From NCBI GenBank assembly GCA_004764695.1, contig SMSO01000033.1, positions 759,001 to 823,000 of the forward strand: a stretch of DNA of 64,000 nt, in the 5' to 3' direction. The position numbers were made by a program, and so were the translations under genes. Source of the DNA: Schizochytrium sp. TIO01 (Eukaryota > Sar > Bigyra > Thraustochytrida > Thraustochytriidae). This document shows, piece by piece, positions 10,706-40,745 of this stretch; within the stretch, counting starts at the first letter, position 1, and every line of letters begins with the position of its first letter. The notes under the pieces were generated by a model. The model did not search any database, had not been told where the DNA came from, and saw only the letters and a program-made list of their open reading frames with translations.

Positions 10706-10954
10706 CTAGGCGCTCTCAGGTGGAGTAGCACCACCTGACTTTGCTTGCTTTTCTGCTGCTGCTTTTGCACGCACAGACTCGCAACAGGCCTCCCAGCGCT
10801 GCACAAAGTCCTGGCACTTGGCCTCGTTGTAGTTGTTTCGCGAGAGGCACCACTGGATGTCACAGGCTAGTTTCTGACACCTCCGCGACGTCAGGCACGG
10901 GTCCGTGGTGCCAGCTCTCTGTTTCTTGCCTGCGCCTTGATAAACAAAGGTCAT
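10706..10954 (-). CDS. CMC4: CMC4-like twin-Cx9C mitochondrial intermembrane-space protein
   Basis: Small 82-residue protein with two Cx9C motifs: C26-x9-C36 and C47-x9-C57, the second followed by an adjacent Cys58. The blocks CQKLACDIQWCL and CQDFVQRWEACC closely match the CMC4/MTCP1NB (p8) family. Such proteins form two disulfide-linked helices and are usually imported into the mitochondrial intermembrane space by the MIA40 relay. The tail after residue 60 is charged and Ala-rich. The frame is open further upstream, but the ATG at 10954 gives a family-like N-terminus. This ATG overlaps the first ATG of the divergent calpain frame, which is odd for a head-to-head pair and is treated as a separate finding. 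An extra Cys20 six residues before the first motif is also seen. Confidence 0.85.
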   Translation of the reverse strand: MTFVYQGAGKKQRAGTTDPCLTSRRCQKLACDIQWCLSRNNYNEAKCQDFVQRWEACCESVRAKAAAEKQAKSGGATPPESA

Positions 10955-13900
10955 GATGATCGTCCTCGATGATGATGACAGTAACGACGGCGTTAGCTCC
11001 TGCGAAAACGACACGCGTGAAAAGGAGCTCACTGGCCCTTCACCCTCAAACCCCCGCGAGGAGGATGCCACGGAATCGGATAGAGCAGCCGATTCTCGTC
11101 TCGCAAACGCCGTCTTTTCAGGATCTGGCGCTCGGAAGAAAAGGTCTCGGCTTCGCGCAGAAAACGCAAGGAACGAGAATGAAAATCATGATGCTGGGTG
11201 GGGAGACGATGCTACGGGCAATGTAGAAATCGTGGACCTTGAAGCAGAAGAATGTACAAAAGACTCGGAGGTTCGTGTAGTATGTAGAAAGGCCGATGTG
11301 AGTTCTGCAGAAATGAAGGAGAATATAGTGGTTGTTGTAGACTTGGAGGATGACAACGATGTGAAGGCCCCAGCGCGGAGCTCAAAATTTAGGCGCACAA
11401 AGAATAAATTCAAAACAAGGGATAAAGAAGACCTAGATGCAGCTCTTGCAAGGCAGTTGCAGAAGGAGGAGCAGGAAAGAAATCAACAAGAAATTGCACA
11501 ATTTTGTGCAATACAAGGATCTGGCGGAACCAGGGAGGTTACAAAGAAATCGAACAACGATGTTGTGCTAGTGGAAGATACAAACTATGCTGTTCAAATC
11601 CGCCTTCGACAGAAACTTGGCAGTGAACTTCTTGGTAGTCTCGGACCTTGGCAAGACTCGCCCGTTTGGGAGCGTGATAGCATCGACGGAGCACCTGGAC
11701 TTTGTCAAGTCAATGAAGATAATAGATCAGAACATCAAACAGAAACTACAACTAATCTTGATAAATTGGCATCAAACGCAAAAGACTCAGAGGCTGGCAG
11801 AGAAAATGCAGAGACTCCCATCGACCTAGCTAAAGACAACGAGGAACCAAATTTGTGGCATGATCCACTCTTTCCGCCAAATCTTAGATCTATTTGTGGC
11901 TCAACCCGTGACCCAAACCTGCCAGCCCCACAAGCACCTCATTGCGGGTGCGGAAGAGCATCCGTTCAGAAAACAGTGTGCCGTCAAACAAAAAACACAG
12001 GGCGACGATTTTGGACATGCTCTAAACGTTTATGCAAGTTTTTTCGCTGGGCGCACGAAGACGAGTGGACAATTCCTAGAGGCGCGAAAAATCATGTTTG
12101 GCGGCGTCCACCAACCTGGCCTGCTTATCCTCGCATCGTGTCTACCAAAGGTTTTCGAGCTGACGATGTGCAGCAAGGAAATCTTGGCGATTGTTGGTTT
12201 GTGTCAGCATTAAGTTGCCTAACTTTGCGTCCAGATTTGATTCAGCGTTTGTTCATTTCCACCGAGCCAAAACCACAAGGTGGACCTTACGAGATCCGCC
12301 TCTTCATTGACGGCAAGTGGCAAGTGTTTGCTATTGATGATCAATTTCCATGCCGTCCGTTACCTGAGAAGTCATCCAAAAAAGCGGTCAGCAAGCGAAA
12401 GCTAGGTACGGTGAATCCAATGTTCAACTTGTCTTTTGCCAAGCCATCAAGGAATTTATTATGGGTTCCTTTAGTAGAAAAAGCATACGCCAAAGCACAT
12501 GGTTGTTATCAAGCTATCTCTGGAGGTTGGGTAGCTGAAGCACTGTTTGACTTAACCGGTTGTCCAACAGAATCTTTTCGTATTGGCAGCATTGATGCAG
12601 ACGAACTTTTCCAGCTGATTCTCTCGTATCATAGCACTAGGTTTTTAATGGGAGCCAGCTGTGCGAACCCAGGGAAAGGATCTGGTCTTGTTGGGTGGCA
12701 TGCATATGGTATACTCGATATTCGTGTTAGCTATAATCGACCAGCCCAACAACTAAGCATAACTTCCATGCTAGACCAAAAACCAAGTAGCTCTTCATCT
12801 TCATCGTCGTTGCTGCCGTCACCGTCATCATCAGCCTCCTCTTCCGCACCCTCTGTTGTTACAGGACATAGTTCTGAAGGAAGTTCCTCCCGGAAGCCAC
12901 TTCGACTGATTCGCTTACGTAATCCATGGGGGCGTCATGAATGGAAGGGCAACTTTTCTCGCAAGTCTTCCGTTTGGACAGATGCGCTGCGCCAAGAACT
13001 TGAGCAATCGAGTGAAGAGGATGGCTCCTTTTGGATGGAGTTTCAAGAATTTCTTGCTCACTTTGTAGGAGGGAACATTGATGTATGTAAAGCACCAGCA
13101 TCTCATGAAGAATGGCACATGACGCCTCTGGAAATCGAGTTTCGCGTCGGGGAGTGGTGGGCAAGACATGTTGTGGAGGTGCATGCATCCGCAGCTGGTC
13201 CGACATGGGCATATTTGACAGTATGCCAGCCGACCAAACGAGGTAAAACGGCAGGTAATTTTGTCCAATGTGATGTAGGCGTTCTTGTTTTGCAACAACG
13301 TAGTAGCCAGGTGTCAACTCGGAGTCCTAGCGTTGTTGCACTTAGCTTGCCAGGTCAGTGCAAAGCATTCCATTTTGATATCTTCTTAGAGCCTGATACG
13401 AAGTATTGGGTGCTAATGTTTTCTCTTTCCCGTAGCCGTGAATCTAGGGATACTGCCAGTTTTCATTTACGTATGCTAAGTGCTCGCCCACTACGCTGGA
13501 GGCGCAGAGTTATGGGTGGGCCACGATTCCTTGTGCATTATCTTCATGAAGCCTTCCTTGCGCGTCTTCGCGCGCCCCTATCTCAGGCCTCAGTAGTACC
13601 ACGTCAACCAAGCTTTCGTCGAGTTAGTGTGCGAGGATTTGATCGCGTTAACAGAATTGTCCACGTTGGGGCTCTTGAGACACACGGAGGCCTACTTGTG
13701 ATTGCAGTCAACACATCGTCAACCTATTATGCTTTAATAGAAGTTTGTGTCATGGGCCTTGCTGGGGAGGAAAATAAGCAAAATACCCAATCAAATATGC
13801 ACATTGTGGCCCCTTCTTCATCGCGAATCGTTGCTGCGGTTGCGAATGCAAATTTCGATGATTACAAATGGGGTCTTAACAACGATGCAGAAACCAACGA

Positions 13901-14030
13901 CAACTCGTTAAAAACATTTTTCACGTCAGAGGCCACAGTTAACTTGCTATTGCAACCACCTTCGACGGGCGAGGTCCAAGACGACCTGGCAGCAACCTTA
14001 ACCCAGTCTCTTCCTATTAGAATGAACTGA
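10953..14030 (+). CDS. Large calpain-type cysteine protease with SIM-like motifs, UIM-like helix and GRF zinc finger
   Basis: Calpain-family cysteine protease of 1025 residues. The catalytic triad is intact: Cys414 in GNLGDCWFVSAL, His583 in GLVGWHAYGI and Asn657 in RLRNPWGRHEW. A Ser-rich insert of about 25 residues lies between His and Asn. Domain III-like beta-sandwich sequence follows from ~695 to the C-terminus; no EF-hands are seen. The N-terminal 300 residues are acidic and look disordered. They carry several hydrophobic-acidic cores resembling SUMO-interacting motifs (MIVLDDDD at 2-9, VEIVDLEAEE at 91-100, IVVVVDLEDD at 125-134, VVLVED at 204-209) and a UIM/MIU-like helix at 160-173 (DLDAALARQLQKEE). 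Residues 331-372 fit a GRF-type zinc finger (HCGCGR, RRFWTCS, CKFFRWAHEDEW). The layout recalls CAPN15/SOL, which has N-terminal zinc fingers, but GRF is a different finger type. The first ATG overlaps the CMC4 start; Met121 (11313) is an alternative start that keeps most of these motifs. Confidence 0.9.
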   Translation: MMIVLDDDDSNDGVSSCENDTREKELTGPSPSNPREEDATESDRAADSRLANAVFSGSGARKKRSRLRAENARNENENHDAGWGDDATGNVEIVDLEAEECTKDSEVRVVCRKADVSSAEMKENIVVVVDLEDDNDVKAPARSSKFRRTKNKFKTRDKEDLDAALARQLQKEEQERNQQEIAQFCAIQGSGGTREVTKKSNNDVVLVEDTNYAVQIRLRQKLGSELLGSLGPWQDSPVWERDSIDGAPGLCQVNEDNRSEHQTETTTNLDKLASNAKDSEAGRENAETPIDLAKDNEEPNLWHDPLFPPNLRSICGSTRDPNLPAPQAPHCGCGRASVQKTVCRQTKNTGRRFWTCSKRLCKFFRWAHEDEWTIPRGAKNHVWRRPPTWPAYPRIVSTKGFRADDVQQGNLGDCWFVSALSCLTLRPDLIQRLFISTEPKPQGGPYEIRLFIDGKWQVFAIDDQFPCRPLPEKSSKKAVSKRKLGTVNPMFNLSFAKPSRNLLWVPLVEKAYAKAHGCYQAISGGWVAEALFDLTGCPTESFRIGSIDADELFQLILSYHSTRFLMGASCANPGKGSGLVGWHAYGILDIRVSYNRPAQQLSITSMLDQKPSSSSSSSSLLPSPSSSASSSAPSVVTGHSSEGSSSRKPLRLIRLRNPWGRHEWKGNFSRKSSVWTDALRQELEQSSEEDGSFWMEFQEFLAHFVGGNIDVCKAPASHEEWHMTPLEIEFRVGEWWARHVVEVHASAAGPTWAYLTVCQPTKRGKTAGNFVQCDVGVLVLQQRSSQVSTRSPSVVALSLPGQCKAFHFDIFLEPDTKYWVLMFSLSRSRESRDTASFHLRMLSARPLRWRRRVMGGPRFLVHYLHEAFLARLRAPLSQASVVPRQPSFRRVSVRGFDRVNRIVHVGALETHGGLLVIAVNTSSTYYALIEVCVMGLAGEENKQNTQSNMHIVAPSSSRIVAAVANANFDDYKWGLNNDAETNDNSLKTFFTSEATVNLLLQPPSTGEVQDDLAATLTQSLPIRMN

Positions 14031-22279: not shown

Positions 22280-25200
22280 ATCTACTCATTATTTAAACAA
22301 TTTGGCTTTCTATTTTTATTATTAAGATACCTTGTGATGTATAAGTTTTATCTCGACAATTCCAGGGATCAGAAGAACCCAGCAAGCTCTAACCTTAACG
22401 CTGTCCCTCACCTTAGTTTAGGATCCGTACCATTTGCATTGAAGAGTAAATTATTACTCAAACAACGCTGGTGATGTGTCTTTCAATCGCTGTTGATGAG
22501 ATACTGCCAACAAATCTGATACAGACTCACCGGTAATTGAAGTTGCAATCAGCAACGAAGAGTGCTCAACGCGAGCAATCGGATTCACGTTTTCTTTGAT
22601 AAGAGTGTCAAGAATGGTCGAATCAAAACAATGCGTGCTCGCGATCACGATATGTAACTGTGTTTGGATCAACGGAAGCTCCCCAGATCGTGAAATTGCA
22701 TCTAGAAGGTCCATGGCCATGTTCTTTTTGTTGCGCAGGTCATCGGCGGACAAGCGCACAGTACTCTTCGATCGGGTCATCCAAGGGGAGTCGTAAGACT
22801 CAAGAGTGACAGTGTCTCCTACTTTGATTTTTGTAGGACGAAGTTGAGCCTTTGTGTCGAGAGCTTCAAACTTGGCATCCATAAGCGACGGGAGTTGCGT
22901 GTAGTCAATGTTAGCTGACTCTGCATTGACCTGCTCGGAGCCTCCTGATAGATCCATAGCTCGTGATTCATTGGGTATATTGTTTGGCGGCTGTTCATGT
23001 GGCATAAACAGAGATGAAGGAGGTGGCTGAATGCGTGCACTTGACTGCTCCATTGACAACATACCCGGAGGAGCCGCCATCGCGCACGTGATTGGATGAA
23101 GCTGTCTCAGTGCCATTTCGCGGTCACCTTTCCAATCTTCGTTTGACTTCGAAAAACACATCTCAACCACCTCCTCCACCTCCTCCACCTCCTCCACATC
23201 AGACTCCAAATAAACACTCCACTCTGTGGGTCCTTGATAACTTAGAAAACGGTCCTTATAGCGATCCACCTCTTCTTCTACTTTCTTTTGCCTACTCTCA
23301 CTCATCATGTTGAGCAACGCTTCAACATGGCCTTTCACTGCTGCAATCTTATCTCCCGAACTTGCATCGGCGGCACCATCAAACGTCACCATATCACACG
23401 GAATCTGATAATCAATGAACAGCTTCATAAGGTTCTGAGTAAGCTCAATCTGCTTCGTGAGCGATCCAGGGTCAAGCTTGAGCAACAGCTCCAGCTGAGG
23501 TTTGATCTCCACAACTGCGACAGCAAAAAGAGTGCCTGCGAGCTGCATCTGCCGCATGGCTTTGGCAAACTCCTGCTGCTCGGGCGACAAACTCTCAATG
23601 GAGTCTCGGAATTTCTTCGCAGAGGGCAACGGCTCCAGAAGCAGAGGAATGATAGCGCAGTCCTTATTCTGAAGCACGATAGCATGCTTCGGAGCGAACT
23701 CATCTTTTGCAGCGATTGTGCCAATCATCACAACGAAACTACTGAATTGCCGAGTTCGAGCAATCAAATTCACCTCCGAATTTGCCGAATCACTGAAACG
23801 GTGCGTCATATACCCATGACAGAATTGTGGGCCTTGCAGCTCTACGGTGGTCGAGGTCCCCATTTTAAAGTGCATAGGAACGCTTGGGTACTCCTCATCG
23901 TTTGGCCTTCGTACTTGCACACAAGTTGCTATCTCCCCGCCGTCGACCTTATTAGGCAGTGCAATGGACAGGGAGCCTTCCGGAGCAAACCCGTGTCGCT
24001 TCACATCATAGCTAAATGGACGAAACACATTTCTCGAAAACAAACGCCTATAGTGAAATTGCATATACTCATCCATCTGATCTGGCGTGACCTCCTTGCC
24101 AATTGCATCAATCAGCTGTTTGCGAAGCAATTGCTCAACGTAGTCACAAGACCTAGAGACAGTCATGCAAATATCGTACATGTGCAGCATCAGTTTGCAA
24201 ACAGATGCTTCGAGAGTCGTGATCAAACCTGCAGACTCTCCACCATCTGGCAATGGAAGCAGACTGCGGATATTGTTGAGCCACTTGTCAATGTCAGCCT
24301 TGTGTTCATTCTGAAAAATGGTTTCTGTGTCCGAATCGAGCACATTGCCTGAAGCTCCGCCATCATTCGTTTGCAGAACAGGAAGTACGGGGACGAAAAT
24401 ATCAGAAGCATCGTTGAAGCTAGACGTATTCAGGTTATCAACGTAAGCAAACAGCTGTTCAAGATGGTGTTGTACGTCAGTGCACCAGCGCGAAACATTG
24501 ATGAGAGCATCCAATAGAACGTCAACGTTCTGATTACGACGCGGTGTGTGGCATGACGAGTTCGTCCGATCGATTGCAAAGGTGAAGTTGGTCTCCTTGT
24601 TTGCGTGTGCGAAGAGCTCAGTAATGTTGACACTAAGCTCAGGAAACAAGTGTGTTTCCGGCTCAGGAGGGAGTTTCTCTTTCCCAGTTGTAGTAACCTC
24701 ACAACTACCCGTGCGTTCTACAAGAACTACACTTGCATTCTGCTCAGGCCCGGCACCTTGAAACATGATGATGCGAAAGGAGTGCTGTAGCTTCCATTTG
24801 TGTTTGAAGACAGTCTTGGATGCTTTTGAGGTGCTATTGACCCCGAGAAAGGTAGTAGAATGCTCTAAGCCCACATCTTCTTTTGTTTCTTCAGTCTTGA
24901 TGAAGTTGCATTTGCGCGACGCTTGAAGACGGAGGCTAACGGCTTTGCCATTTGACACAAGCTCTTGAGCATTGCGAATAGAAGCGTTGTCCAGCCCAAG
25001 TGCCCGAAGAGACGTAAGCAGAGCTTGCAGACCGTTGTTAACGGCATGCTCTACTAAGAGAAACTTATCATTATAAGCATGCGAAGTTCCTGATACCGTC
25101 ACAGGTACTTTCGATTTCTCCAGTACGAGCTTGGCGCGCTCTACTCCGCGTTGCAGATTGCGCTCAAACCCCAAGGGGCTAAACGACGAATGCGCCCTGT

Positions 25201-25655
25201 ACATTATGTTATTTATGCGTTCCTATGACTTTCAGATGGGCCCTGGATTCACTGCGTCTCACTCTCTCCAGTTCTCATTCGGTATTTACAACCAGAGGGT
25301 TCTCACCCTTCCGCCAGTGCTGAGTCCAACACGTGCAGTCCACAAGTACTAAACCAGGCGTTGTTATCGCTGATACTGCTTCTTCTGTGCTGCTGCCGTA
25401 TCTTTGTCTCTCAAAAGCTCTGTTCCAGATCGATTCGGATTTGCTGCTGCTCCACAGATCCTTTCTCTTCCCTGGAGGTACCCTTTTACATATTCTGTAT
25501 GCAGTTCTACTGAGTCAGTTCTTCCACACAAGATTTTGCTTCTCTACGGTTTAGTGTTCAGCTAGTTCTTTCTGTAGAACTGTTATCCACCCAGTTCTAC
25601 TTGTTCCTATCGCAGCGAGGAACTGTGAGGGACACGGATCTGAAGCAGAACGTTC
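22280..25655. repeat. Left arm of a large inverted repeat (copy A block)
   Basis: This ~3.4-kb block contains gene copy A, its short 3' flank and ~450 bp of its 5' flank. It is repeated in inverted orientation at 27025-30375. The arms are nearly identical by eye except for the hypervariable segment inside the gene. The inner end coincides with the 10-bp palindrome AGAACGTTCT (25,647-25,656); on the right arm the matching boundary also falls at GAACGTTC. The outer end becomes gradually less similar and its exact limit is uncertain. Confidence 0.9.
22454..25204 (-). CDS. Multicopy protist-type protein of unknown function, copy A
   Basis: 916-residue protein with no transmembrane segment, signal peptide or catalytic motif that I can name. 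The blocks near residues 430-640 (for example QFSSFVVMIGTI, LSPEQQEFAKAMRQMQ, FIDYQIPCDMVTFDG) and the last ~170 residues (MDLLDAISRSGELPL, IASTHCFDSTILDTLI, NVNPIARVEHSSLL) resemble a conserved family I recall from predicted diatom, oomycete and other protist proteins, function unknown. It is almost identical to copies B and C except for residues 653-741, which are unrelated and in this copy include an EEVEEVEEV run and a Pro-rich part. The start is set at the ATG shared with the other copies. Its 3' flank lacks the convergent membrane-protein gene found beside the other copies. Confidence 0.9.
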   Translation of the reverse strand: MYRAHSSFSPLGFERNLQRGVERAKLVLEKSKVPVTVSGTSHAYNDKFLLVEHAVNNGLQALLTSLRALGLDNASIRNAQELVSNGKAVSLRLQASRKCNFIKTEETKEDVGLEHSTTFLGVNSTSKASKTVFKHKWKLQHSFRIIMFQGAGPEQNASVVLVERTGSCEVTTTGKEKLPPEPETHLFPELSVNITELFAHANKETNFTFAIDRTNSSCHTPRRNQNVDVLLDALINVSRWCTDVQHHLEQLFAYVDNLNTSSFNDASDIFVPVLPVLQTNDGGASGNVLDSDTETIFQNEHKADIDKWLNNIRSLLPLPDGGESAGLITTLEASVCKLMLHMYDICMTVSRSCDYVEQLLRKQLIDAIGKEVTPDQMDEYMQFHYRRLFSRNVFRPFSYDVKRHGFAPEGSLSIALPNKVDGGEIATCVQVRRPNDEEYPSVPMHFKMGTSTTVELQGPQFCHGYMTHRFSDSANSEVNLIARTRQFSSFVVMIGTIAAKDEFAPKHAIVLQNKDCAIIPLLLEPLPSAKKFRDSIESLSPEQQEFAKAMRQMQLAGTLFAVAVVEIKPQLELLLKLDPGSLTKQIELTQNLMKLFIDYQIPCDMVTFDGAADASSGDKIAAVKGHVEALLNMMSESRQKKVEEEVDRYKDRFLSYQGPTEWSVYLESDVEEVEEVEEVVEMCFSKSNEDWKGDREMALRQLHPITCAMAAPPGMLSMEQSSARIQPPPSSLFMPHEQPPNNIPNESRAMDLSGGSEQVNAESANIDYTQLPSLMDAKFEALDTKAQLRPTKIKVGDTVTLESYDSPWMTRSKSTVRLSADDLRNKKNMAMDLLDAISRSGELPLIQTQLHIVIASTHCFDSTILDTLIKENVNPIARVEHSSLLIATSITGESVSDLLAVSHQQRLKDTSPALFE

Positions 25656-26280
25656 TTAGATCCATTTGTGAGATTGAGTTGAGATCCTTCAAGTTGAGAG
25701 CACATGCGTTGTCTGACGTGGCTCTGAGTTACTGAGACGTACGTCGAGTAAAAACCGCGATGCCAGGCCACGTGAATGCCTCCTGCGCTGACTCCACCAA
25801 TAGGAAGGATTCACAACTCTCACGAGACTAATATCGCCTGTGTAGGACATCATCGATGTGGTATCAACATAAAAGCAAGGGATCCCAAAGCGCTCTGATT
25901 CGCTCCAAAATCTCTTAATTGAAAAGCTTTGCGAAGATTTATAGAGACGTATGTTCCTTTGTCACGATGCGAGTAGAGAAGAGCAGGAGGCGAGTGCGTG
26001 AGCTAATGTTTAAAAGCTAAGAACATACATCATCAACGTGAACATGCGTGGACTAATAGGCAGTTTGATCAATTGCAGAATCTGTGCTGTCTTTAGAGAA
26101 GTGCTGAATCCCAGTTCTATCTGTTAGGCGCTAGCAGTGCATACTCCAGGCCTATATAAATTACTAGATATAGCCTAGCACTGTCATTTAAAAAAGTTAT
26201 AATGAAATGAATTGTACCAACAATTTCGTTGCCAGCTTTGAGAGATTGGATAACATTGGATCTCGGGAGCGCTCAATTCA
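25205..26280. repeat. 5' flank of copy A, repeated beside copy C
   Basis: Direct copy of 37325-38390. Similarity is uneven: the first ~95 bp are nearly identical, 25,302-25,620 matches only loosely (roughly 80% by eye), and 25,640-26,260 is again very similar. Within it lies a decayed reading frame (around 25,690-25,830) that encodes KLRAHALSDVALSY but is stopped by TGA, where the C-side copy reads on. The start-proximal part presumably includes the promoter of copy A. Confidence 0.8.
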
Positions 26281-27024
26281 ATCAGACAGGAGTGCCAGGT
26301 TCGACCGCACGACCACGTCGCCACCGCGGTTAGGCATTCGAAAGGTTGGCTTCTTTGTGGACGATGTCTTGGCGAGTATAAAAGCGCCTGTCTCAAAGTT
26401 GACCTCACTGTAGGCAAAGCAGCGATCATCGAAAGGGAGTTCGTTCGAACTCACTCAACTTAAAGCTCTCGCAGCCTACTTCAACTCGAACCAGCGATGT
26501 GCTACCACAGTAGACCTCGCAACGCCTCTGTGCGAGGCAGCTGAGGCAGATGACGAGGAACTAGAACGTGCCTTGAAAATACCCGGAGAGCGGGGACTCG
26601 GAGATGCACGGCCCAAATGGCGCCTTCACCCCGGTCGCCGAGTCCTTGGGCAGTGACAAAGGGACTTCGATGTGTCGCACGCCGTAGGGACATCGGCGAG
26701 AATGCGCTCTGTGGTGCTCGATCCCAAGATAAGCGGCGAAGAGACGTCATGACATCCATGAGACTTGGCTTACATCATACAAAGCGTGAGCATACGCTGT
26801 TGATTCATACAATTACAAAAATCGAGAGAAAAATTAATTGACTCCTGAGTGTAAAAAAGGAAAACTGAAAGATTGAGGAGGGAAAATCGAACGCCTCGTT
26901 TTCTTAGCAAGGAGGCTCCATAAAACAGAAACAGACGGTTGATCTGATTGGATAGTTGTGCTTCAATGAGGTTCAAAGAGCAGGCCCAGATTTAAGAATG
27001 ACGAAATGTCACCAAGAGTTCTGC
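25656..27024. other. Spacer of the inverted repeat with relic coding sequence
   Basis: 1.37 kb between the arms. The left half continues the flank repeat shared with copy C. Around 26,350-26,640 a degraded frame reads GFFVDDVLASIKAPV, then after a stop ELTQLKALAAYFNSNQRCAT and ALKIPGERGLGDARPKWRLH. Similar, differently damaged sequence recurs at 38,660-38,890 and in inverted orientation at 30,980-31,180. No intact gene is present. Confidence 0.6.
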
Positions 27025-30000
27025 GAACGTTCTGCTTCTGATCCGTGTCCCTCACAGTCCCTCGCTGCGATAGGAACAAGTAGAACTGGGTGGATACCAG
27101 TTCTAGAGAAAGAACTAGCTGAACACTAAACAGTAGAGAAGCAAAATCTTGTGTGGAAGAACTGACTCAGTAGAACTGCATACAGAATATGCAAAAGGGT
27201 ACCTCCAGGGAAGAGAAAGGATCTGCGGAGCAGCAGCAAATCCGAATCGATCTGGAGCAGAGCTTTTGAGAGACAAAGATACGGCACCAGCACAGAAGAA
27301 GCAGTATCAGCGATAACAGCGCCTGGTTTAGTACTTGTGGACTGCACGTGTTAGAATCAGCACTGGCGGGAGAGTGAGGAACCTCTGGTTGCAAATACCG
27401 ACTGAGAACTGGAGAGAGTGAGACGCAGTGAATCCAGGGCCCATCTGCAAGTCATAGGAACGCATAAATAACATAATGTACAGGGCGCATCCGTCGTTTA
27501 GCCCCTTGGGGTTTGAGCGCAATCTGCAACGCGGAGTAGAGCGCGCCAAGCTCGTACTGGAGAAATCGAAAGTACCTGTGACGGTATCAGGAACTTCGCA
27601 TGCTTATAATGACAAGTTTCTCTTAGTAGAGCATGCCGTTAACAACGGTCTGCAAGCTCTGCTTACGTCTCTTCGGGCACTTGGGCTGGACAACGCTTCT
27701 ATTCGCAATGCTCAAGAGCTTGTGTCAAATGGCAAAGCCGTTAGCCTCCGTCTTCAAGCGTCGCGCAAATGCAACTTCATCAAGACTGAAGAAACAAAAG
27801 AAGATGTGGGCTTAGAGCATTCTACTACCTTTCTCGGAGTCAAGGCCATCTCAAAAGCATCCAAGACTGTCATCAAACACAAATGGAAGCTGCAGCACTC
27901 CTTTCGCATCATCATGTTTCAAGGTGCCGGGCCTGAGCAGAATGCAAGTGTAGTTCTTGTAGAACGCACGGGTAGTTGTGAGGTTACTACAACTGGGAAA
28001 GAGAAACTCCCTCCTGAGCCGGAAACACACTTGTTTCCTGAGCTTAGTGTCAACATTACTGAGCTCTTCGCACACGCAAACAAGGAGACCAACTTCACCT
28101 TTGCAATCGATCGGACGAACTCGTCATGCCACACACCGCGTCGTAATCAGAACGTTGACGTTCTATTGGATGCTCTCATCAATGTTTCGCGCTGGTGCAC
28201 TGACGTACAACACCATCTTGAACAGCTGTTTGCTTACGTTGATAACCTGAATACGTCTAGCTTCAACGATGCTTCTGATATTTTCGTCCCCGTACTTCCT
28301 GTTCTGCAAACGAATGATGGCGGAGCTTCAGGCAATGTGCTCGATTCGGACACAGAAACCATTTTTCAGAATGAACACAAGGCTGACATTGACAAGTGGC
28401 TCAACAATATCCGCAGTCTGCTTCCATTGCCAGATGGTGGAGAGTCTGCAGGTTTGATCACGACTCTCGAAGCATCTGTTTGCAAACTGATGCTGCACAT
28501 GTACGATATTTGCATGACTGTCTCTAGGTCTTGTGACTACGTTGAGCAATTGCTTCGCAAACAGCTGATTGATGCAATTGGCAAGGAGGTCACGCCAGAT
28601 CAGATGGATGAGTATATGCAATTTCACTATAGGCGTTTGTTTTCGAGAAATGTGTTTCGTCCATTTAGCTATGATGTGAAGCGACACGGGTTTGCTCCGG
28701 AAGGCTCCCTGTCCATTGCACTGCCTAATAAGGTCGACGGCGGGGAGATAGCAACTTGTGTGCAAGTACGAAGGCCAAACGATGAGGAGTACCCAAGCGT
28801 TCCTATGCACTTTAAAATGGGGACCTCGACCACCGTAGAGCTGCAAGGCCCACAATTCTGTCATGGGTATATGACGCACCGTTTCAGTGATTCGGCAAAT
28901 TCGGAGGTGAATTTGATTGCTCGAACTCGGCAATTCAGTAGTTTCGTTGTGATGATTGGCACAATCGTTGCAAAAGATGAGTTCGCTCCGAAGCATGCTA
29001 TCGTGCTTCAGAATAAGGACTGCGCTATCATTCCTCTGCTTCTGGAGCCGTTGCCCTCTGCGAAAGAATTCCGAGACTCCATTGAGAGCTTGTCGCCCGA
29101 GCAGCAAGAGTTTGCCAAAGCCATGCGGCAGATGCAGCTCGCAGGCACTCTTTTTGCTGTCGCAGTTGTGGAGATCAAACCTCAGCTGGAGCTGTTGCTC
29201 AAGCTTGACCCTGGATCGCTCACGAAGCAGATTGAGCTTACTCAGAACCTTATGAAGCTGTTCATTGATTATCAGATTCCGTGTGATATGGTGACGTTTG
29301 ATGGTGCCGCTGATGCAAGTTCGGGAGATAAGATTGCAGCAGTGAAAGGCCATGTTGAAGCGTTGCTCAATATGATGAGTGAGAGTAGGCAAAAGAAAGT
29401 AGAAGAAGAGGTGGATCGCTGTAATGATGATCTTCTTACTTTCTCACAAAGTATCATGGATGACTGTGATAAACGATCGGATTCCGGCATGGAGACTTTT
29501 GCAATGGCTTCGGGAAGGAATAACAATCGCAGATACAAGGCGAAGCGGGCTGTGACTAGGAATTTTGCTCCGGAATCCGCCCGCATGATGTCTGCTCCTG
29601 CGCCTATGCCTGTGGCAAAGGAACAAACTCTATCTCCACCTTCACGGCCTCAGCAGCAGCAGCAGAACGATATACCCAATGAACCAGGAGCTATGGATCT
29701 CTCAGGAGGCTTCGAGCAGGGTAATGTAGAGTCAACTAACATCGACTACACGCAACTCCCGTCGCTTATGGATGCCAAGTTTGAAGCTCTCGACACAAAG
29801 GCTCAACTTCGTCCTACAAAAATCAAAGTAGGAGACACTGTCACTCTTGAGTCTTACGACTCCCCTTGGATGACCCGATCAAAGAGTACTTTGCGCTTGT
29901 CCGCCGATGGCCTGCGCGACAAAAAGAACATGGCCATGGACCTTCTAGATGCAATTTCACGATCTGGGGAGCTTCCGTTGATCCAAACACAGTTACATAT

Positions 30001-30375
30001 CGTGATCGCGAGCACGCATTGTTTTGATTCGACCATTCTTGACACTCTTATCAAAGAAAACGTGAATCCGATTGCTCGCGTTGAGCACTCTTCGTTGCTG
30101 ATTGCAACTTCAATTACCGGTGAGTCTGTATCAGATTTGTTGGCAGTATCTCATCAACAGCGATTGAAAGACACATCACCAGCGTTGTTTGAGTAATAAT
30201 TTACTCTTCAATGCAAATGACACGGATCCCAAACTAAGTTGAGGGACAGCGTTAATGCTAAAGCCTGCTGGGTTCTTCTGATTCCTTCAATTGTCGAGAT
30301 AAAACTTATACATCACAAGGTAGCTTACTAATAAAAATAGAAATAAAATGAAGAATCGATTTTTCAAATAATGAG
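27025..30375. repeat. Right arm of the large inverted repeat (copy B block)
   Basis: Reverse-complement counterpart of 22280-25655, carrying gene copy B on the plus strand. Flank and coding sequence agree with the left arm at nearly every base inspected, except in the hypervariable segment (29,420-29,665). The 3' flank is closer to the flanks of copies C and D than to that of A. Confidence 0.9.
27476..30196 (+). CDS. Multicopy protist-type protein of unknown function, copy B
   Basis: 906-residue paralogue of copies A and C in the opposite orientation to both. Before residue 648 it differs from A at only a handful of positions, for example Pro6, the GVKAISKAS stretch near residue 126, and Val/Glu changes near residues 527 and 559. 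Residues 649-730 are the variable segment: here basic, with MDDCDKRSDSG, NNNRRYKAKRAVTR, then ARMMSAPAPMPVAK and a short poly-Gln. The latter part is recognisable in copy C but not in A. From NDIPNEPGAMDL onward the protein is again near-identical to the others. A damaged remnant of the M membrane-protein gene lies just downstream on the opposite strand, mirroring the M-C arrangement. Confidence 0.9.
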   Translation: MYRAHPSFSPLGFERNLQRGVERAKLVLEKSKVPVTVSGTSHAYNDKFLLVEHAVNNGLQALLTSLRALGLDNASIRNAQELVSNGKAVSLRLQASRKCNFIKTEETKEDVGLEHSTTFLGVKAISKASKTVIKHKWKLQHSFRIIMFQGAGPEQNASVVLVERTGSCEVTTTGKEKLPPEPETHLFPELSVNITELFAHANKETNFTFAIDRTNSSCHTPRRNQNVDVLLDALINVSRWCTDVQHHLEQLFAYVDNLNTSSFNDASDIFVPVLPVLQTNDGGASGNVLDSDTETIFQNEHKADIDKWLNNIRSLLPLPDGGESAGLITTLEASVCKLMLHMYDICMTVSRSCDYVEQLLRKQLIDAIGKEVTPDQMDEYMQFHYRRLFSRNVFRPFSYDVKRHGFAPEGSLSIALPNKVDGGEIATCVQVRRPNDEEYPSVPMHFKMGTSTTVELQGPQFCHGYMTHRFSDSANSEVNLIARTRQFSSFVVMIGTIVAKDEFAPKHAIVLQNKDCAIIPLLLEPLPSAKEFRDSIESLSPEQQEFAKAMRQMQLAGTLFAVAVVEIKPQLELLLKLDPGSLTKQIELTQNLMKLFIDYQIPCDMVTFDGAADASSGDKIAAVKGHVEALLNMMSESRQKKVEEEVDRCNDDLLTFSQSIMDDCDKRSDSGMETFAMASGRNNNRRYKAKRAVTRNFAPESARMMSAPAPMPVAKEQTLSPPSRPQQQQQNDIPNEPGAMDLSGGFEQGNVESTNIDYTQLPSLMDAKFEALDTKAQLRPTKIKVGDTVTLESYDSPWMTRSKSTLRLSADGLRDKKNMAMDLLDAISRSGELPLIQTQLHIVIASTHCFDSTILDTLIKENVNPIARVEHSSLLIATSITGESVSDLLAVSHQQRLKDTSPALFE

Positions 30376-31318: not shown

Positions 31319-31378
31319 ACGAGCTATTCAATTACGATCTCTAATTTTCAATTTAATCAGGCTGTATCTATAAGTTTT

Positions 31379-31541
31379 GGTAGGTCTTGAATTCGCACTA
31401 CTATTGCCTAACAGGTAGAACTGTAACTGGATCTGGACAAGACAAGTTGAGAGCGCTTCTGTGCAGGTAGGTCTTGAATTCGCACTACTATTGCCTAACA
31501 GGTAGAACTGTAACTGGATCTGGACAAGACAAGTTGAGAGC
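31379..31541. repeat. Tandem duplication with 87-bp period
   Basis: A 76-bp sequence starting GGTAGGTCTTGAATTCGC occurs at 31379-31454 and, apparently identical, at 31466-31541, separated by GCTTCTGTGCA. The period equals 29 codons, and the minus-strand frame stays open through both copies. The identity of the copies implies a recent event. Confidence 0.9.
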
Positions 31542-31578
31542 ATTTTGTAAAGCTTCTGCAATCGAGCCGTCTGGCTAG

Positions 31579-31930
31579 TTATCCACGGATGTTCCCGTTA
31601 ATGATGGCTCTCCTAGCTTCTGACCACGAGTTCCAGACCTCCAACTCAAGCTTAGCTCTATTCGCATCATGACTTAGATACAAAGTTACCTTTAACTGCT
31701 CACGAAAATCTTCAAGGTTGGAATACATTGAAGCGAATTGTTGTGCTTGCTTTTGTATTCGGTGCTGTCCTGCGAAGGGAATGGTACTTTCCTGAGAGTT
31801 GTCAATCACCCCTTGTGATGGGTCGGTGCGGAAGTATTCACTTGGCCTAGCATTGCCGTTCTCATTCGAGATATGTTCAAACAACTGAGAGCCACATCAG
31901 CCAACGAATGCGCTCTCAACTTGAGAAGCT
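31579..31930 (-). pseudogene. Relic open frame, possibly from a mobile element
   Basis: A minus-strand frame of 101 codons (31579-31884) ends with LEDFREQLKVTLYLSH and LELEVWNSWSEARRAIING. Upstream of it, at the nucleotide level, this strand matches the KLRAHALSDVALS relic in the flanks of copies A and C at roughly 70% by eye. The helical, charged C-terminus is vaguely Gag-like, but no zinc knuckle, protease or reverse transcriptase follows, so this is a guess. It is best read as a decayed gene or element fragment. Confidence 0.35.
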
Positions 31931-32577
31931 GAAGTCGTTACAAGTTGAAGGATACTACAACTCATTAGGGCCTATAATGTCATTTCAATATCTCTTTTTT
32001 TTAAAATTAAATTAAGTAAACTTGAAGGAACTTGAAAAGAAAAGGAAAAAATATTGCAAAGCTGCTGTCACCGCAAAATTTCATATTAATGTGCCTGCTG
32101 TCCTGTCATAACGACGTGTAAAAAGCTTAGCAAGTAGTGTGCCATTCTTAAGAGTAACAGATGGTACTCCTAGGATAGTTTTGGCCTTTGCAGTAAAGGC
32201 AATGACCTATAGACAATCTGTTTCCGTATCCTTTGAACATTATTAGAATGACATTCTTTTTCGATCTATCATTTTCTTTATTTCTACTTAAATTAAAAAA
32301 AATATTAAGATAGATTAATTGAAGAACAACGCGAAGACTAAAATGACTAACTACTATCGTAGGGTACCCACATAACAACCTACTCGGATCTATTACAAAA
32401 ATGATAACCATGGAGGCCTGTGCTTAACTGAAACAACATAGTTTGGCGCTACGAGCTCGGGCCTTCAAAAGAGCTGGGCACTCCGTGAGTAGGACATGCT
32501 ACTCGAGAGTCGTTCATCTAGCGTCAAGAGTCGCGAACCAGCCGATACAGGTGAAGTAACAGACGAGGTCTTGCAAC
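31931..32577. other. Intergenic region upstream of gene M
   Basis: AT-rich, with no open frame of note. It presumably contains the promoter and 5' untranslated region of M. No homology to the flanks of the M fragments was seen, as these are all truncated at their 5' ends. Confidence 0.4.
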
Positions 32578-34125
32578 ATGACTCTCGAACTGTTTGAGAC
32601 AGCAAGGCTTCGTGTGCTGCAGCTTGGGTTGTATTCTCCCATCGTGCCCGCAGGTGCCATCCCGCCAAATAAATACCCGCCACAACTCACTTTTGCAAAG
32701 GAAATCAAGGCGATTTGCTTGCAATGTGGTGCGGTACTGCTTGGTCAGCAGCTCGGAAACGCTGCCGAAATTGTGGTTCGTAAATATACTTCTTCCTTAC
32801 CAAAACCCCAGATCTATCGCGAGCGAGAGCTTGCAGCCATGGTCGGGGACCTTCTGTCATTTATTTGTATGAGCACAGCCGTTTTTACAAGTGTAGCTGG
32901 AGTTTATTTAGAGCGACCCAATCCTTTTTTAAGCCGATATGGCTCTTCAAAGGAGTATTTGAAGTGGATCGTGCTTTTAGTATTTGTGCTTTGGCCTGCT
33001 GTTCTGCATCTTTCATTTCGTCAAGAGTATGTTTGGTCTTATTCCCCAGGACTCTTCATTGGTGGGCATTTTGTGTTCATGGATAATGTAACAATTTTCC
33101 AAACATTTGGGTCCAAGATGGTTCAAGGTCTCCCCGGGTGGCGTCTCATGAGCAAAGGGGAGCTTATGTTGGGGTGGTTTATTGTATCAAGTGTCGCTCT
33201 CGTTTTCGTTTTGCATGTGCGATATTTTATGAGAGATAGCGATGCGCTATGGTCGTGCACTCTACAATACCTAACCCTCGGGCTTGGCTTGAGCATTGCG
33301 AGATTTTTTGGAGGGTCAAAACGTTGTTTCCATGCACATCACTACTTCAACTTTGGCCTACTTCTTCCGCTAACCCGCTTCCCCTTTGTAGGCTCGCTTG
33401 TCTTTCAATCCGTTGTAATTGGTAGTATGATTGAAGGAATCTCGTGTTGGGGCATGGACCCAATTTTCCATGACCCTTTTGCCTCAGACACATGTTTTGC
33501 TACGCAGTATTGGACAACAATGCTCATTATGCTTGATGAAGACTCAGTGTCGTGGCGTTCGAGTTTAGCTATTCTTCATGCTTTATTCTCGACTGCAGGT
33601 TCGATTCCCTATGGGCGCTTCGAGCAGCTTGGTGTCGCTTACTTGCATGCTAATCTACAAACAATGGCTTCAAAACTTGACATGGATGCTCATACAATGG
33701 TCTCCGAACCCTCACAAGCTCTGAACACTGCTGAACATCACCCTAGTGAGATCAAGAATGCCAGAGAGGAAAGCAGGACTTTGAGTTTATTACAAGGCTT
33801 TATATCTGAGGAGGTTGCAAACTGGACAGCTGATATCTCCACGCGTCTTGCCTCAGATGACATACAGTTATTAGCTTTCCTTGATACGGTTGTGCGCGGG
33901 ATGCTTGCGGGTTCTAATGAGCTAGGTCGTGCATGTTTGCATATTGTTGGCAGAGAACCAAAGATTTTTGAGATGCTTCGTATTGACAAAGATGCACGTG
34001 TTCAACGCATGCGGAATGCTATTGACCCTCTTGTACGCCCTCATGGGGTTCCAAGTGAGTTGCTGCTGAGCTATGAACGCGAGTTTGTGTTGTTGCTTGC
34101 ATCTATCTCAACAAATGTACCTTAG
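32578..34125 (+). CDS. Multi-pass membrane protein of unknown function (gene M)
   Basis: 515-residue protein with about five to six hydrophobic segments between residues ~88 and ~300, for example ~88-112, WIVLLVFVLWPAVLHL at 130-145, GWFIVSSVALVFVLHV, YLTLGLGLSIARFFG and FVGSLVFQSVVIGSMIEGI. After the fourth segment comes HAHHYFNFGLLLPLTRFP (from residue 252), a His-rich motif that resembles, from memory, the C-terminal membrane region of LCCL-domain and related fungal and protist membrane proteins. The C-terminal ~120 residues are soluble and helical (EEVANWTADIS, CLHIVGREPKIFEM, DKDARVQRMRNAIDPLVRP). It is the only complete copy in the window and converges with copy C, 373 bp away. Three truncated relatives lie nearby. 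The function is not known to me. Confidence 0.85.
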   Translation: MTLELFETARLRVLQLGLYSPIVPAGAIPPNKYPPQLTFAKEIKAICLQCGAVLLGQQLGNAAEIVVRKYTSSLPKPQIYRERELAAMVGDLLSFICMSTAVFTSVAGVYLERPNPFLSRYGSSKEYLKWIVLLVFVLWPAVLHLSFRQEYVWSYSPGLFIGGHFVFMDNVTIFQTFGSKMVQGLPGWRLMSKGELMLGWFIVSSVALVFVLHVRYFMRDSDALWSCTLQYLTLGLGLSIARFFGGSKRCFHAHHYFNFGLLLPLTRFPFVGSLVFQSVVIGSMIEGISCWGMDPIFHDPFASDTCFATQYWTTMLIMLDEDSVSWRSSLAILHALFSTAGSIPYGRFEQLGVAYLHANLQTMASKLDMDAHTMVSEPSQALNTAEHHPSEIKNAREESRTLSLLQGFISEEVANWTADISTRLASDDIQLLAFLDTVVRGMLAGSNELGRACLHIVGREPKIFEMLRIDKDARVQRMRNAIDPLVRPHGVPSELLLSYEREFVLLLASISTNVP

Positions 34126-34498: not shown

Positions 34499-37324
34499 TT
34501 ACTCAAACAACGCTGGTGATGTGTCTTTCAATCGCTGTTGATGAGATACTGCCAACAAATCCGATACAGACTCACCAGTAATTGAAGTTGCAATCAGCAA
34601 CGAAGAGTGCTCAACGCGAGCAATCGGATTCACGTTTTCTTTGATAAGAGTGTCAAGAATGGTCGAATCAAAACAATGCGTGCTTGCGATCACGATATGT
34701 AACTGTGTTTGGATCAACGGAAGCTCCCCAGATCGTGAAATTGCATCTAGAAGGTCCATGGCCATGTTCTTTTTGTTGCGCAGGTCATCGGCGGACAAGC
34801 GCACAGTACTCTTCGATCGGGTCATCCAAGGGGAGTCGTAAGACTCAAGAGTGACAGTGTCTCCTACTTTGATTTTTGTAGGACGAAGTTGAGCCTTTGT
34901 GTCGAGAGCTTCAAACTTGGCATCCATAAGCGACGGGAGTTGCGTGTAGTCAATGTTAGCTGACTCTGCATTGACCTGCTCGAAGCCTCCTGTTAGATCC
35001 ATAGCCCCTGGTTCATTGGGTATATCGTTCTGCTGCTGCTGTTGTTGTTGCTGAGGCCGTGAAGGTTGAGATGGAGCTCGTTGGCGTATTCTACTGACGC
35101 TTGAACAGGACCTTGTCTTATTAGCCGTCTTAGCCACACGCATAGGAGCAGGAGAAGACATCATGCGGGCGGCTTTCCGAGGTCCTCTCATTGCCGTTTG
35201 GCAGTGCCTTTCGGAACCAAGAACCCTTTCCTTGTACTTAATTGCGGAACTATCCTCAAATTCAGAGTATCGGGTCCTTTTGATAGGTTCACAATCAAAA
35301 TCAGAACCCCCAGAGCCATCATCCCCATCTCCACAATCTAACTCTATCGCTGATTCATTAGTTAGAACACGGTCCTTATAGCGATCCACCTCTTCTTCTA
35401 CTTTCTTTTGCCTACTCTCACTCATCATGTTGAGCAACGCTTCAACATGGCCTTTCACTGCTGCAATCTTATCTCCCGAACTTGCATCGGCGGCACCATC
35501 AAACGTCACCATATCACACGGAATCTGATAATCAATGAACAGCTTCATAAGGTTCTGAGTAAGCTCAATCTGCTTCGTGAGCGATCCAGGGTCAAGCTTG
35601 AGCAACAGCTCCAGCTGAGGTTTGATCTCCACAACTGCGACAGCAAAAAGAGTGCCTGCGAGCTGCATCTGCCGCATGGCTTTGGCAAACTCTTGCTGCT
35701 CGGGCGACAAACTCTCAATGGAGTCTCGGAATTTCTTCGCAGAGGGCAACGGCTCCAGAAGCAGAGGAATGATAGCGCAGTCCTTATTCTGAAGCACGAT
35801 AGCATGCTTCGGAGCGAACTCATCTTTTGCAGCGATTGTGCCAATCATCACAACGAAACTACTGAATTGCCGAGTTCGAGCAATCAAATTCACCTCCGAA
35901 TTTGCCGAATCACTGAAACGGTGCGTCATATACCCATGACAGAATTGTGGGCCTTGCAGCTCTACGGTGGTCGAGGTCCCCATTTTAAAGTGCATAGGAA
36001 CGCTTGGGTACTCCTCATCGTTTGGCCTTCGTACTTGCACACAAGTTGCTATCTCCCCGCCGTCGACCTTGTTAGGCAGTGCAATGGACAGGGAGCCTTC
36101 CGGAGCAAACCCGTGTCGCTTCACATCATAGCTAAATGGACGAAACACATTTCTCGAAAACAAACGCCTATAGTGAAATTGCATATACTCGTCCATCTGG
36201 TCTGGCGTGACCTCCTTGCCAATTGCATCAATCAGCTGTTTGCGAAGCAATTGCTCAACGTAGTCACAAGACCTAGAGACAGTCATGCAAATATCGTACA
36301 TGTGCAGCATCAGTTTGCAAACAGATGCTTCAAGAGTCGTGATCAAACCTGCGGACTCTCCACCATCTGGCAATGGAAGCAGACTGCGGATATTGTTGAG
36401 CCACTTGTCAATGTCAGCCTTGTGTTCATTCTGAAAAATGGTTTCTGTGTCCGAATCGAGCACATTGCCTGAAGCTCCGCCATCGTTCGTTTGCAGAACA
36501 GGAAGTACGGGGACGAAAATATCAGAAGCATCGTTGAAGCTAGACGTATTCAGGTTATCAACGTAAGCAAACAGCTGTTCAAGATGGTGTTGTACGTCAG
36601 TGCACCAGCGCGAAACATTGATGAGAGCATCCAATAGAACGTCAACGTTCTGATTACGACGCGGTGTGTGGCATGACGAGTTCGTCCGATCGATTGCAAA
36701 GGTGAAGTTGGTCTCCTTGTTTGCGTGTGCGAAGAGCTCAGTAATGTTGACACTAAGCTCAGGAAACAAGTGTGTTTCCGGCTCAGGAGGGAGTTTCTCT
36801 TTCCCAGTTGTAGTAACCTCACAACTACCCGTGCGTTCTACAAGAACTACACTTGCATTCTGCTCAGGCCCGGCACCTTGAAACATGATGATGCGAAAGG
36901 AGTGCTGTAGCTTCCATTTGTGTTTGAAGACAGTCTTATATGCCTTTGAGATGGCCTGGACTCCGAGAAAGGTAGTAGAATGCTCGAAGCCTACATCTTC
37001 TTTTGTTTCTTCAGTCTTGATGAAGTTGCATTTGCGCGACGCTTGAAGACGGAGGCTAACGGCTTTGCCATTTGACACAAGCTCTTGAGCATTGCGAATA
37101 GAAGCGTTGTCCAGCCCAAGTGCCCGAAGAGACGTAAGCAGAGCTTGCAGACCGTTGTTAACGGCATGCTCTACTAAGAGAAACTTATCATTATAAGCAT
37201 GCGAAGTTCCTGATACCGTCACAGGTACTTTCGACTTCTCCAATACGAGCTTGGCGCGCTCTACTCCGCGTTGCAGATTGCGCTTAAACCCCAAGGGGCT
37301 AAACGACGAATGCGCCTTGTACAT
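34499..37324 (-). CDS. Multicopy protist-type protein of unknown function, copy C
   Basis: Third full-length paralogue, 941 residues from the ATG shared with A and B. An in-frame ATG seven codons upstream (37345) exists only in this copy, where A and B have ATA, and is probably not the start. Outside the variable segment the coding sequence differs from A by roughly 0.5% in the ~1.5 kb I compared by eye. The variable segment (residues ~649-765 by this numbering; nucleotides 35,030-35,380) is the longest of the three: acidic at first (CGDGDDGSGGSDFDCE), then basic, with two related units YKDRVLTNES and YKERVLGSER, then ARMMSSPAPMRVAK shared with B, and a poly-Gln run. The C-terminal ~170 residues match A almost exactly. 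It converges with the intact M gene. Confidence 0.9.
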   Translation of the reverse strand: MYKAHSSFSPLGFKRNLQRGVERAKLVLEKSKVPVTVSGTSHAYNDKFLLVEHAVNNGLQALLTSLRALGLDNASIRNAQELVSNGKAVSLRLQASRKCNFIKTEETKEDVGFEHSTTFLGVQAISKAYKTVFKHKWKLQHSFRIIMFQGAGPEQNASVVLVERTGSCEVTTTGKEKLPPEPETHLFPELSVNITELFAHANKETNFTFAIDRTNSSCHTPRRNQNVDVLLDALINVSRWCTDVQHHLEQLFAYVDNLNTSSFNDASDIFVPVLPVLQTNDGGASGNVLDSDTETIFQNEHKADIDKWLNNIRSLLPLPDGGESAGLITTLEASVCKLMLHMYDICMTVSRSCDYVEQLLRKQLIDAIGKEVTPDQMDEYMQFHYRRLFSRNVFRPFSYDVKRHGFAPEGSLSIALPNKVDGGEIATCVQVRRPNDEEYPSVPMHFKMGTSTTVELQGPQFCHGYMTHRFSDSANSEVNLIARTRQFSSFVVMIGTIAAKDEFAPKHAIVLQNKDCAIIPLLLEPLPSAKKFRDSIESLSPEQQEFAKAMRQMQLAGTLFAVAVVEIKPQLELLLKLDPGSLTKQIELTQNLMKLFIDYQIPCDMVTFDGAADASSGDKIAAVKGHVEALLNMMSESRQKKVEEEVDRYKDRVLTNESAIELDCGDGDDGSGGSDFDCEPIKRTRYSEFEDSSAIKYKERVLGSERHCQTAMRGPRKAARMMSSPAPMRVAKTANKTRSCSSVSRIRQRAPSQPSRPQQQQQQQQNDIPNEPGAMDLTGGFEQVNAESANIDYTQLPSLMDAKFEALDTKAQLRPTKIKVGDTVTLESYDSPWMTRSKSTVRLSADDLRNKKNMAMDLLDAISRSGELPLIQTQLHIVIASTHCFDSTILDTLIKENVNPIARVEHSSLLIATSITGESVSDLLAVSHQQRLKDTSPALFE

Positions 37325-38690: not shown

Positions 38691-39111
38691 AGGGAGTCTG
38701 TCACGTCGTTGACCTCACCGTGGCCGACACAGCAATCAATCAGCGATCGAACTCACTCAACTTGAAGCTCTCACAGCCTACTTCAACTCGCCACCGCGTT
38801 GTGCTACCATGGTAGATATCGCAACGTGTTTGTACAAGGCAGTTGATGCCGATTATGAGAAATTACAAGGTGCCTTGAAAATACTCTAGAGAGCAGGGAC
38901 TCGGAGGTGCACAGCCCAAGTGCCGTCTTCGTCCTGGCACACGGTCAGTCGCTGAGCCCCGACGCAGTGACGAAAGCAAACTCCGCTGTGTCACCCGCTC
39001 AAGGGACAATAGCAATGGTGAGATCTGTGGTGGTCAATGCCAAGATGAGCTAGATAGAGAGGTGATGACATGCGTGAGTCTTGGCTCGTATCAAACACAG
39101 CGAAATACTTG
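38691..39111. other. Relic region between repeat pair and M fragment
   Basis: Contains the decayed frame ELTQLEALTAYFNS (38749-38889) followed by degraded sequence also found at 26,640-26,770 and, inverted, at 30,740-31,110. No intact gene is present. Confidence 0.5.
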
Positions 39112-39341
39112 GGGGTTCTAATGAGCTAGGTCGTGCATGTTTGCATATTGTTGGCAGAGAACCAAAGGTTTTTGAGATGCTTCGTGTTGACAAAGATGCA
39201 CGTGTTCAACGCATGCGGAATGCTATTGACCCTCTTGTACGCCCTCATGGGGTTCCAAGTGAGTTACTGGTGAGCTACGAACGCGAGTTTGTGTTGTTGC
39301 TTGCATCTATCTCAACCAATGTACCCTTAGTGCTCGAGTAG
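39112..39341 (+). pseudogene. 3' fragment of gene M (unbroken frame)
   Basis: Encodes the last ~76 residues of M plus a short extension (PLVLE). The frame is open from an unrelated ATG at 39081, giving an 86-residue reading frame, but all membrane segments are missing. It is closest to the broken fragment at 30510-30738 (both have LLVSYERE and the same 5' breakpoint) and more distant from intact M. It converges with fragment D. It is probably non-functional, although a short peptide cannot be excluded. Confidence 0.8.
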
Positions 39342-39650
39342 TAAGGTCGAAGAAGGCAACATCACTATTCTTATTCTCGATGCCATCTTATGTTTCATTT
39401 CTTTGTTTCTTCATAGACCTAACAAAAGTTTCTGTTCTGATTTCTTATCTCATGGTAATTTATAGCATATTTCAACTCATTATTTGAAAAATCGATTCTT
39501 CATTTTATTATTGTTTTATTAAGCTACCTTGTGATGTATAAGTTTTATCTCGACAATTGAAGGAATCAGAAGAACCCAGCAAGCTCTAACCTTAACGCTG
39601 TCCCTCAACTTAGTTTGGGATCCGTACCATTTGCATTGAAGAGTAAATTA

Positions 39651-39925
39651 TTACTCAAACAACGCTGGTGATGTGTCTTTCAATCGCTGTTGATGAGATA
39701 CTGCCAACAAATCTGATACAGACTCACCGGTAATTGAAGTTGCAATCAGCAACGAAGAGTGCTCAACGCGAGCAATCGGATTCACGTTTTCTTTGATAAG
39801 AGTGTCAAGAATGGTCGAATCAAAACAATGCGTGCTCGCGATTACGATATGTAACTGTGTTTGGATCAACGGAAGCTCCCCAGATCGTGAAATTGCATCT
39901 AGAAGGTCCATGGCCATGTTCTTTT
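39651..39925 (-). pseudogene. 3' fragment of the multicopy gene (copy D)
   Basis: Encodes the last ~91 residues of the A/B/C protein (from KNMAMDLLDAIS to SPALFE), nearly identical to copy A. Homology stops abruptly inside the gene at 39,925-39,926, where the sequence jumps to the middle of gene M. The 3' flank (39,520-39,650) is conserved with the other copies. Without ~90% of the gene it is a pseudogene. Confidence 0.9.
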
Positions 39926-40694
39926 TCTTCCGCTAACCCGCTTCCCCTTTGTAGGCTCGCTTGTCTTTCAATCCGTTGTAATTGGTAGTATGATTGAAGG
40001 AATCTCGTGTTGGGGCATGGACCCAATTTTCCATGACCCTTTTGCCTCAGACACATGTTTTGCTACGCAGTATTGGACAACAATGCTCATTATGCTTGAT
40101 GAAGACTCAGTGTCGTGGCGTTCGAGTTTAGCTATTCTTCATGCTTTATTCTCGACTGCAGGTTCGATTCCCTATGGGCGCTTCGAGCAGCTTGGTGTCG
40201 CTTACTTGCATGCTAATCTACAAACAATGGCTTCAAAACTTGACATGGATGCTCATACAATGGTCTCCGAACCCTCACAAGCTCTGAACACTGCTGAACA
40301 TCACCCTAGTGAGATCAAGAATGCCAGAGAGGAAAGCAGGACTTTGAGTTTATTACAAGGCTTTATATCTGAGGAGGTTGCAAACTGGACAGCTGATATC
40401 TCCACGCGTCTTGCCTCAGATGACATACAGTTATTAGCTTTCCTTGATACGGTTGTGCGCGGGATGCTTGCGGGTTCTAATGAGCTAGGTCGTGCATGTT
40501 TGCATATTGTTGGCAGAGAACCAAAGATTTTTGAGATGCTTCGTGTTGACAAAGATGCACGTGTTCAACGCATGCGGAATGCTATTGACCCTCTTGTACG
40601 CCCTCATGGGGTTCCAAGTGAGTTGCTGCTGAGCTATGAACGCGAGTTTGTGTTGTTGCTTGCATCTATCTCAACAAATGCACCTAAGTGTTAG
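39926..40694 (+). pseudogene. 5'-truncated copy of membrane-protein gene M
   Basis: Starts at the junction with fragment D and corresponds to M from about codon 262 (LPLTRFP) to the end. It is almost identical to M by eye (for example Val for Ile in FEMLRVDKDARV). It lacks the first four membrane segments and has an altered C-terminus (APKC instead of VP). An ATG at 39990 gives a 234-codon frame. The similarity ends around 40,745, past the stop codon. It has no native promoter and is likely inactive. Confidence 0.85.
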
Positions 40695-40745
40695 AGTAGT
40701 AAGATCGAATAGACTAAGATTGCTATTCTTTTTCTCGATGCCGCT

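Follow-up and report, generated by a model that had tools for sequence, protein, structure and literature searches.

The VSG, VESA and pilin genes form variant multigene families that are diversified from donor repertoires, and in the honey bee, balancing selection acts on the alleles of the csd gene, which has a hypervariable region. Peaks of divergence have been described in duplicates under gene conversion: exon 5 of the human red and green opsin genes forms such a peak, as discussed in a review that cites the model of Teshima and Innan for this pattern (PMC3924837), and the GOT1p1 and GOT1p2 paralogues of the copepod Tigriopus californicus carry islands of divergence while conversion is ongoing (PMC3728101). 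Both papers regard divergence peaks of this kind as potential signs of selection.

Here we describe a family of four full genes, copies A to D, in a 64-Mb eukaryote assembly of 37 contigs, whose core has probably been levelled by interlocus gene conversion around an old divergent segment, giving concerted evolution with a local peak of divergence. As in the opsins, conversion apparently keeps neighbouring duplicates similar while a single local stretch is strongly diverged, but whereas the opsin peak consists of a few functional substitutions with a known effect on colour sensitivity, the peak in A-D takes in a whole segment together with indels. With GOT1p1 and GOT1p2 the family shares a mosaic of high and low divergence between paralogues under conversion, although the copepod case concerns a known enzyme followed in several populations, while ours concerns four copies in one genome and an apparently disordered segment. 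Constant parts flank variable parts here as they do in VSG, VESA and pilin genes; in contrast with their donor repertoires, only four full genes were found, and no silent donors for the segments of A, B and C. The likeness to csd, namely a repeat-rich hypervariable stretch between conserved parts with a paralogue adjacent, is a lead only, since csd variation is allelic and under balancing selection, whereas variation in A-D is known here from one assembly. The family clearly exemplifies an evolutionary pattern that has been described before; it does not amount to a demonstrated recognition system.

The window, by which we mean the whole stretch of 64,000 nt analysed (C32:759001-823000), holds three adjacent copies in alternating orientation, each identified as an uninterrupted open reading frame and by alignment, that encode one protein of ~910-940 aa: A at 22454-25204 on the minus strand (916 codons plus stop), B at 27476-30196 on the plus strand (906 codons plus stop), and C at 34499-37324 on the minus strand (941 codons plus stop). 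The initial annotation had suggested searching the genome for further copies and silent donor segments, and this search added a further complete copy, D, which lies on a separate contig (C7:304959-307757, 928 residues) between two neighbours named by eye, one a Myb-like gene and the other a long ORF of unrelated sequence. It also returned a truncated fifth copy at 39504-39933 on the minus strand, which comprises the C-terminal end only and has a stop within the match, but it returned no donor segments for A, B or C. Laxer genome searches using the N-terminal and C-terminal parts as queries gave no copies beyond these. The start ATG is kept in 4 of 4 full copies, and the reading frame is open in all of them; the genome has a GC content of about 45% and few introns. 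Taken with the genome size and a frame that holds two FabA-type domains, these features point to a thraustochytrid, probably close to Aurantiochytrium, although they do not prove the genus.

The encoded protein had no match in Pfam, NCBIfam or PHROGs and no solved structure in a PDB sequence search, and neither tblastn in phages nor scans of viral and prokaryote contigs revealed a relative. TRIP13_N was considered as its family and set aside, with a match (E=0.029) that is short of the cut-off and falls in a helical stretch. AlphaFold2 predictions were unusable, with pLDDT values of 30 (three near-identical rows) and 35 (C-terminal part alone), and inspection of the N-terminus by eye suggested no secretion signal. 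Literature searches found no paper on the gene family or the locus.

Between conserved N-terminal (~650 aa) and C-terminal (~165 aa) parts, each copy carries a divergent middle segment, which we delimited between EVDR and AMDL with its partly conserved right edge counted in. The segment of A (22961-23260, minus strand) has 100 codons, is acidic (net -10) and contains an in-frame (GAGGAGGTG)n tandem repeat. That of B (29420-29689, plus strand) has 90 codons, with poly-Gln at its end and homology to the C segment in its right part, while that of C (35006-35380, minus strand) has 125 codons and is homologous to the segment of D, to that of B at the right and identical to that of A over its left 12 nt. 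The segment of D has 113 codons and its own sequence. These limits agree on the left with those given in the initial annotation but differ on the right, where the partly conserved edge is included here. All four segments are open in frame 1 and have lengths that are multiples of three, whereas the other two forward frames contain 2-16 stops each within the segments; when the segments were shuffled, the frame stayed open with a probability of 0.0007-0.008 per copy. The central observation of the initial annotation, that near-identical paralogues A, B and C carry differing in-frame middle segments, is real. Disorder-typical residues make up 65-75% of the segments compared to 57% of the core, and slippage-prone, in-frame repeats are present; judged from this composition, the segment is probably disordered.

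An alignment of the C and D segments spans 97 columns, of which 34 are identical, and the right parts of the B and C segments share 22 of 31 residues; 0 of 1000 shuffles reached the score in either comparison. Similarity between the A and D segments was marginal (P=0.017, shuffles), and the A-B, A-C and B-D pairs were not above chance by the same procedure. The segments had been called largely unalignable, which goes a little too far, since B aligns with C in the right part and C aligns with D. Because C-D and B-C are homologous above shuffles, these segments are not unrelated insertions. The mosaic edges that had been noted, on the right between B and C and on the left between A and C, were both recovered. 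Counted from where the anchor GAGGTGGATCGC begins, A equals C for 24 nt and B equals both for 13 nt, and the A-C identity extends 12 nt (YKDR) into the segment before it breaks off abruptly. This common A-C edge has 0 of 6 silent differences and looks like the place where a conversion tract met heterology and stopped, while the B-C likeness in the right part is older. On the right edge, differences taper over roughly 50 nt.

Silent divergence, which the initial annotation had proposed to compare by region, was raised inside the segment. Counted at identical residues, silent differences between C and D occurred at 16 of 34 positions in the segment versus 93 of 722 outside (Fisher P=2.9e-6), and between B and C at 5 of 19 versus 22 of 774 (Fisher P=2.6e-4), with the segment alignment being uncertain in both pairs. 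Selection on the protein sequence would not by itself increase silent change in the segment; the segment is either older than the flanks on both sides or faster evolving at silent sites as well. In the alignable segment parts, dN/dS was about 0.7-0.9 (B-C 0.49/0.54, C-D 0.80/1.11), again on an uncertain alignment. The ratio does not exceed 1 and offers no positive hint of diversifying selection, so that a diversification mechanism, as in recognition or antigen-type genes, remains a suggestion. The C-D segment (dN about 0.8, silent differences at 47% of identical residues) is more diverged than the alignable C-D 5' flank (16-25%).

Across the first 648 codons, A and B differ at 16 of 1944 nt, A and C at 22 of 1944, and B and C at 26 of 1944. 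The resulting DNA identity of 98.7-99.2% makes these copies near-identical, although it falls below the ~99.5% estimated at the outset. Copy D differs from each of A, B and C at about 6% of nucleotides in the core. Silent divergence in the core is 0.018-0.040 within the A-B-C trio and rises to about 0.18 in comparisons with D (A-C 0.030 versus A-D 0.175); the corresponding values for the C-terminal part are 0.025-0.061 and 0.25-0.29. Between roughly codons 140 and 497, A and B show no differences, and from codon 498 on the site pattern changes to one in which mostly A equals C. Between A and B, 59 polymorphic sites in a row are concordant (codons 140-488; P=0.0004, permutation), whereas a conversion test restricted to silent codons was weak (A-B P=0.055, A-C P=0.026), such that the long identical A-B tract lies beyond chance and its silent-only version is borderline. 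A short second patch of amino-acid differences among A, B and C occupies codons 121-133 (N/K/Q, S/A, T/I, S/Y, F/I); here A has the S-T state, like D, and B and C both have A-I.

In the 5' flank, between -200 and -400, the copies differ by 3.0% for A-B, 19.8% for A-C, 19.2% for B-C, 22.0% for A-D and 15.7% for C-D, while between -400 and -700 the values are 7.1% for A-C and 16.5% for A-D, and B aligns with none. The 5' flank of A (25205-26310, minus strand) is a mosaic that is B-like to about -400 and C-like beyond. A is about as distant from C as from D in the 5' flank, yet A and C are six times closer than A and D in the core. The closest pair therefore changes from stretch to stretch in both the 5' flank and the core site patterns. 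The changed ranking in the 5' flank is not what one recent duplication would leave behind, but it is what patchwork exchange between old copies produces.

Genome searches with the A, B and C segments matched each only at its own place, apart from cross matches between B and C, and no silent gene copies were found in the genome besides the C-terminal fragment; for these three segments, the 64-Mb genome yielded no silent donor segments elsewhere. Retroelement-type mutagenesis (DGR) was considered separately and rejected, with many indels among the differences and no template repeat among the matches of the A, B and C segments.

Taken together, the disagreement between flank and core, the A-B tract, the silent excess, the C-D and B-C homology and the lack of donors for the A, B and C segments indicate that the segment predates the homogenisation of the gene around it. 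Of the two origins offered in the initial annotation, these observations favour flanks homogenised around old variants, with mosaic flanks and identical tracts, over a swap of the segment as a unit. The starting state would have been a small family of old duplicates, with A, B and C clustered and D on another contig. Interlocus gene conversion would repeatedly overwrite the coding core, often within the A-B-C cluster and seldom with D, and the low-complexity, probably disordered middle stretch would evolve fast by substitution, indels and repeat slippage. After the copies came to differ there, conversion tracts would halt at the edge of the heterology, and the segment would thus retain its old divergence while the flanks on both sides were levelled. 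We infer the direction and rate of conversion, as well as the disorder of the segment, its weak constraint and the heterology barrier. Levelling of the coding flanks is not by itself enough to account for how diverged the C-D segment is; conversion of the 5' flank as well, faster local mutation, or selection on the segment could make up the difference. Replacement by foreign sequence is possible for the A segment, because it has no clear homology to B or C.

Selection may instead be what keeps the segments different, with conversion homogenising the rest of the gene and each copy having a distinct binding or recognition role, for instance in self/non-self or partner specificity, an alternative that we hold to be rather unlikely. 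Segment divergence does exceed that of every aligned flank, codons 121-133 also gather amino-acid differences, 4 of 4 genes remain open, and such peaks in opsin genes have been treated as marks of selection (PMC3924837). Against this, dN/dS stays at about 0.7-0.9 where the segment is alignable and silent sites are raised as well, family, domain and structure searches gave no recognition-like match, and the N-terminus, by eye, carries no hint of secretion. More specifically, the segment could be the specificity module of a thraustochytrid recognition or partner-binding family, held under diversifying or balancing selection while conversion keeps the rest constant, which we consider improbable.

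It is still more doubtful that A, B and C arose by recent segmental duplication and that unrelated sequence then replaced the segment as a unit by cassette swap or insertion. The sharp left edges and the lack of significant similarity of the A segment to those of B or C would fit such an event, but the homology of the C-D and B-C segments, the 64-Mb assembly without a donor for A, B or C, and A-C 5' flanks almost as distant as those of A-D all speak against it. An intron that is spliced out to leave the proteins alike is extremely unlikely: although GT and AG dinucleotides lie close to the edges (by eye), no copy has an in-frame stop in the segment, the lengths are multiples of three, and stops crowd the other forward frames. 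Neighbouring near-identical inverted copies are hard to assemble, yet the flanks and the upstream mosaic are distinct for every copy, and D shows the same pattern on another contig amid unrelated genes, leaving an assembly or haplotype artefact with hardly any probability.

If conversion has levelled the core around an old segment, as we favour, the near-identity of the paralogues is no date, since A, B and C look young by their core but are old by their segment and flanks. Copies A-D also form a natural setting in which to ask whether conversion is halted by sequence heterology or by selection. Literature searches returned no report of a conversion-levelled gene with an escaping island in the thraustochytrids, the protist group to which this genome probably belongs and which includes at least one genetically manipulable species: in Aurantiochytrium limacinum, crtIBY was reported to be essential for carotenoid synthesis (PMC10016063).

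The block around C and the truncated fifth copy has been rearranged repeatedly. A 521-aa ORF without a Pfam match (32560-34125, plus strand) adjoins C, and its 3' half recurs at 39925-40740 (99% identical) beside the truncated fifth copy, where another part of it lies at 39105-39325. An isolated stretch of 5'-flank sequence from this family, detached from any gene copy, is located at 31352-31671; it is 77-85% identical to the sequence upstream of copy D and contains an 87-bp perfect tandem duplication (31379-31541). Elsewhere in the window, a long ORF on the plus strand (10944-14030) encodes a calpain-family protease domain and a GRF zinc finger, and an ORF on the minus strand (1763-3280) matches a GlfB-like C-terminal domain. 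The assembly also contains a 1647-aa frame with two FabA-type domains, a PUFA-synthase-type subunit with tandem FabA-type dehydratase.
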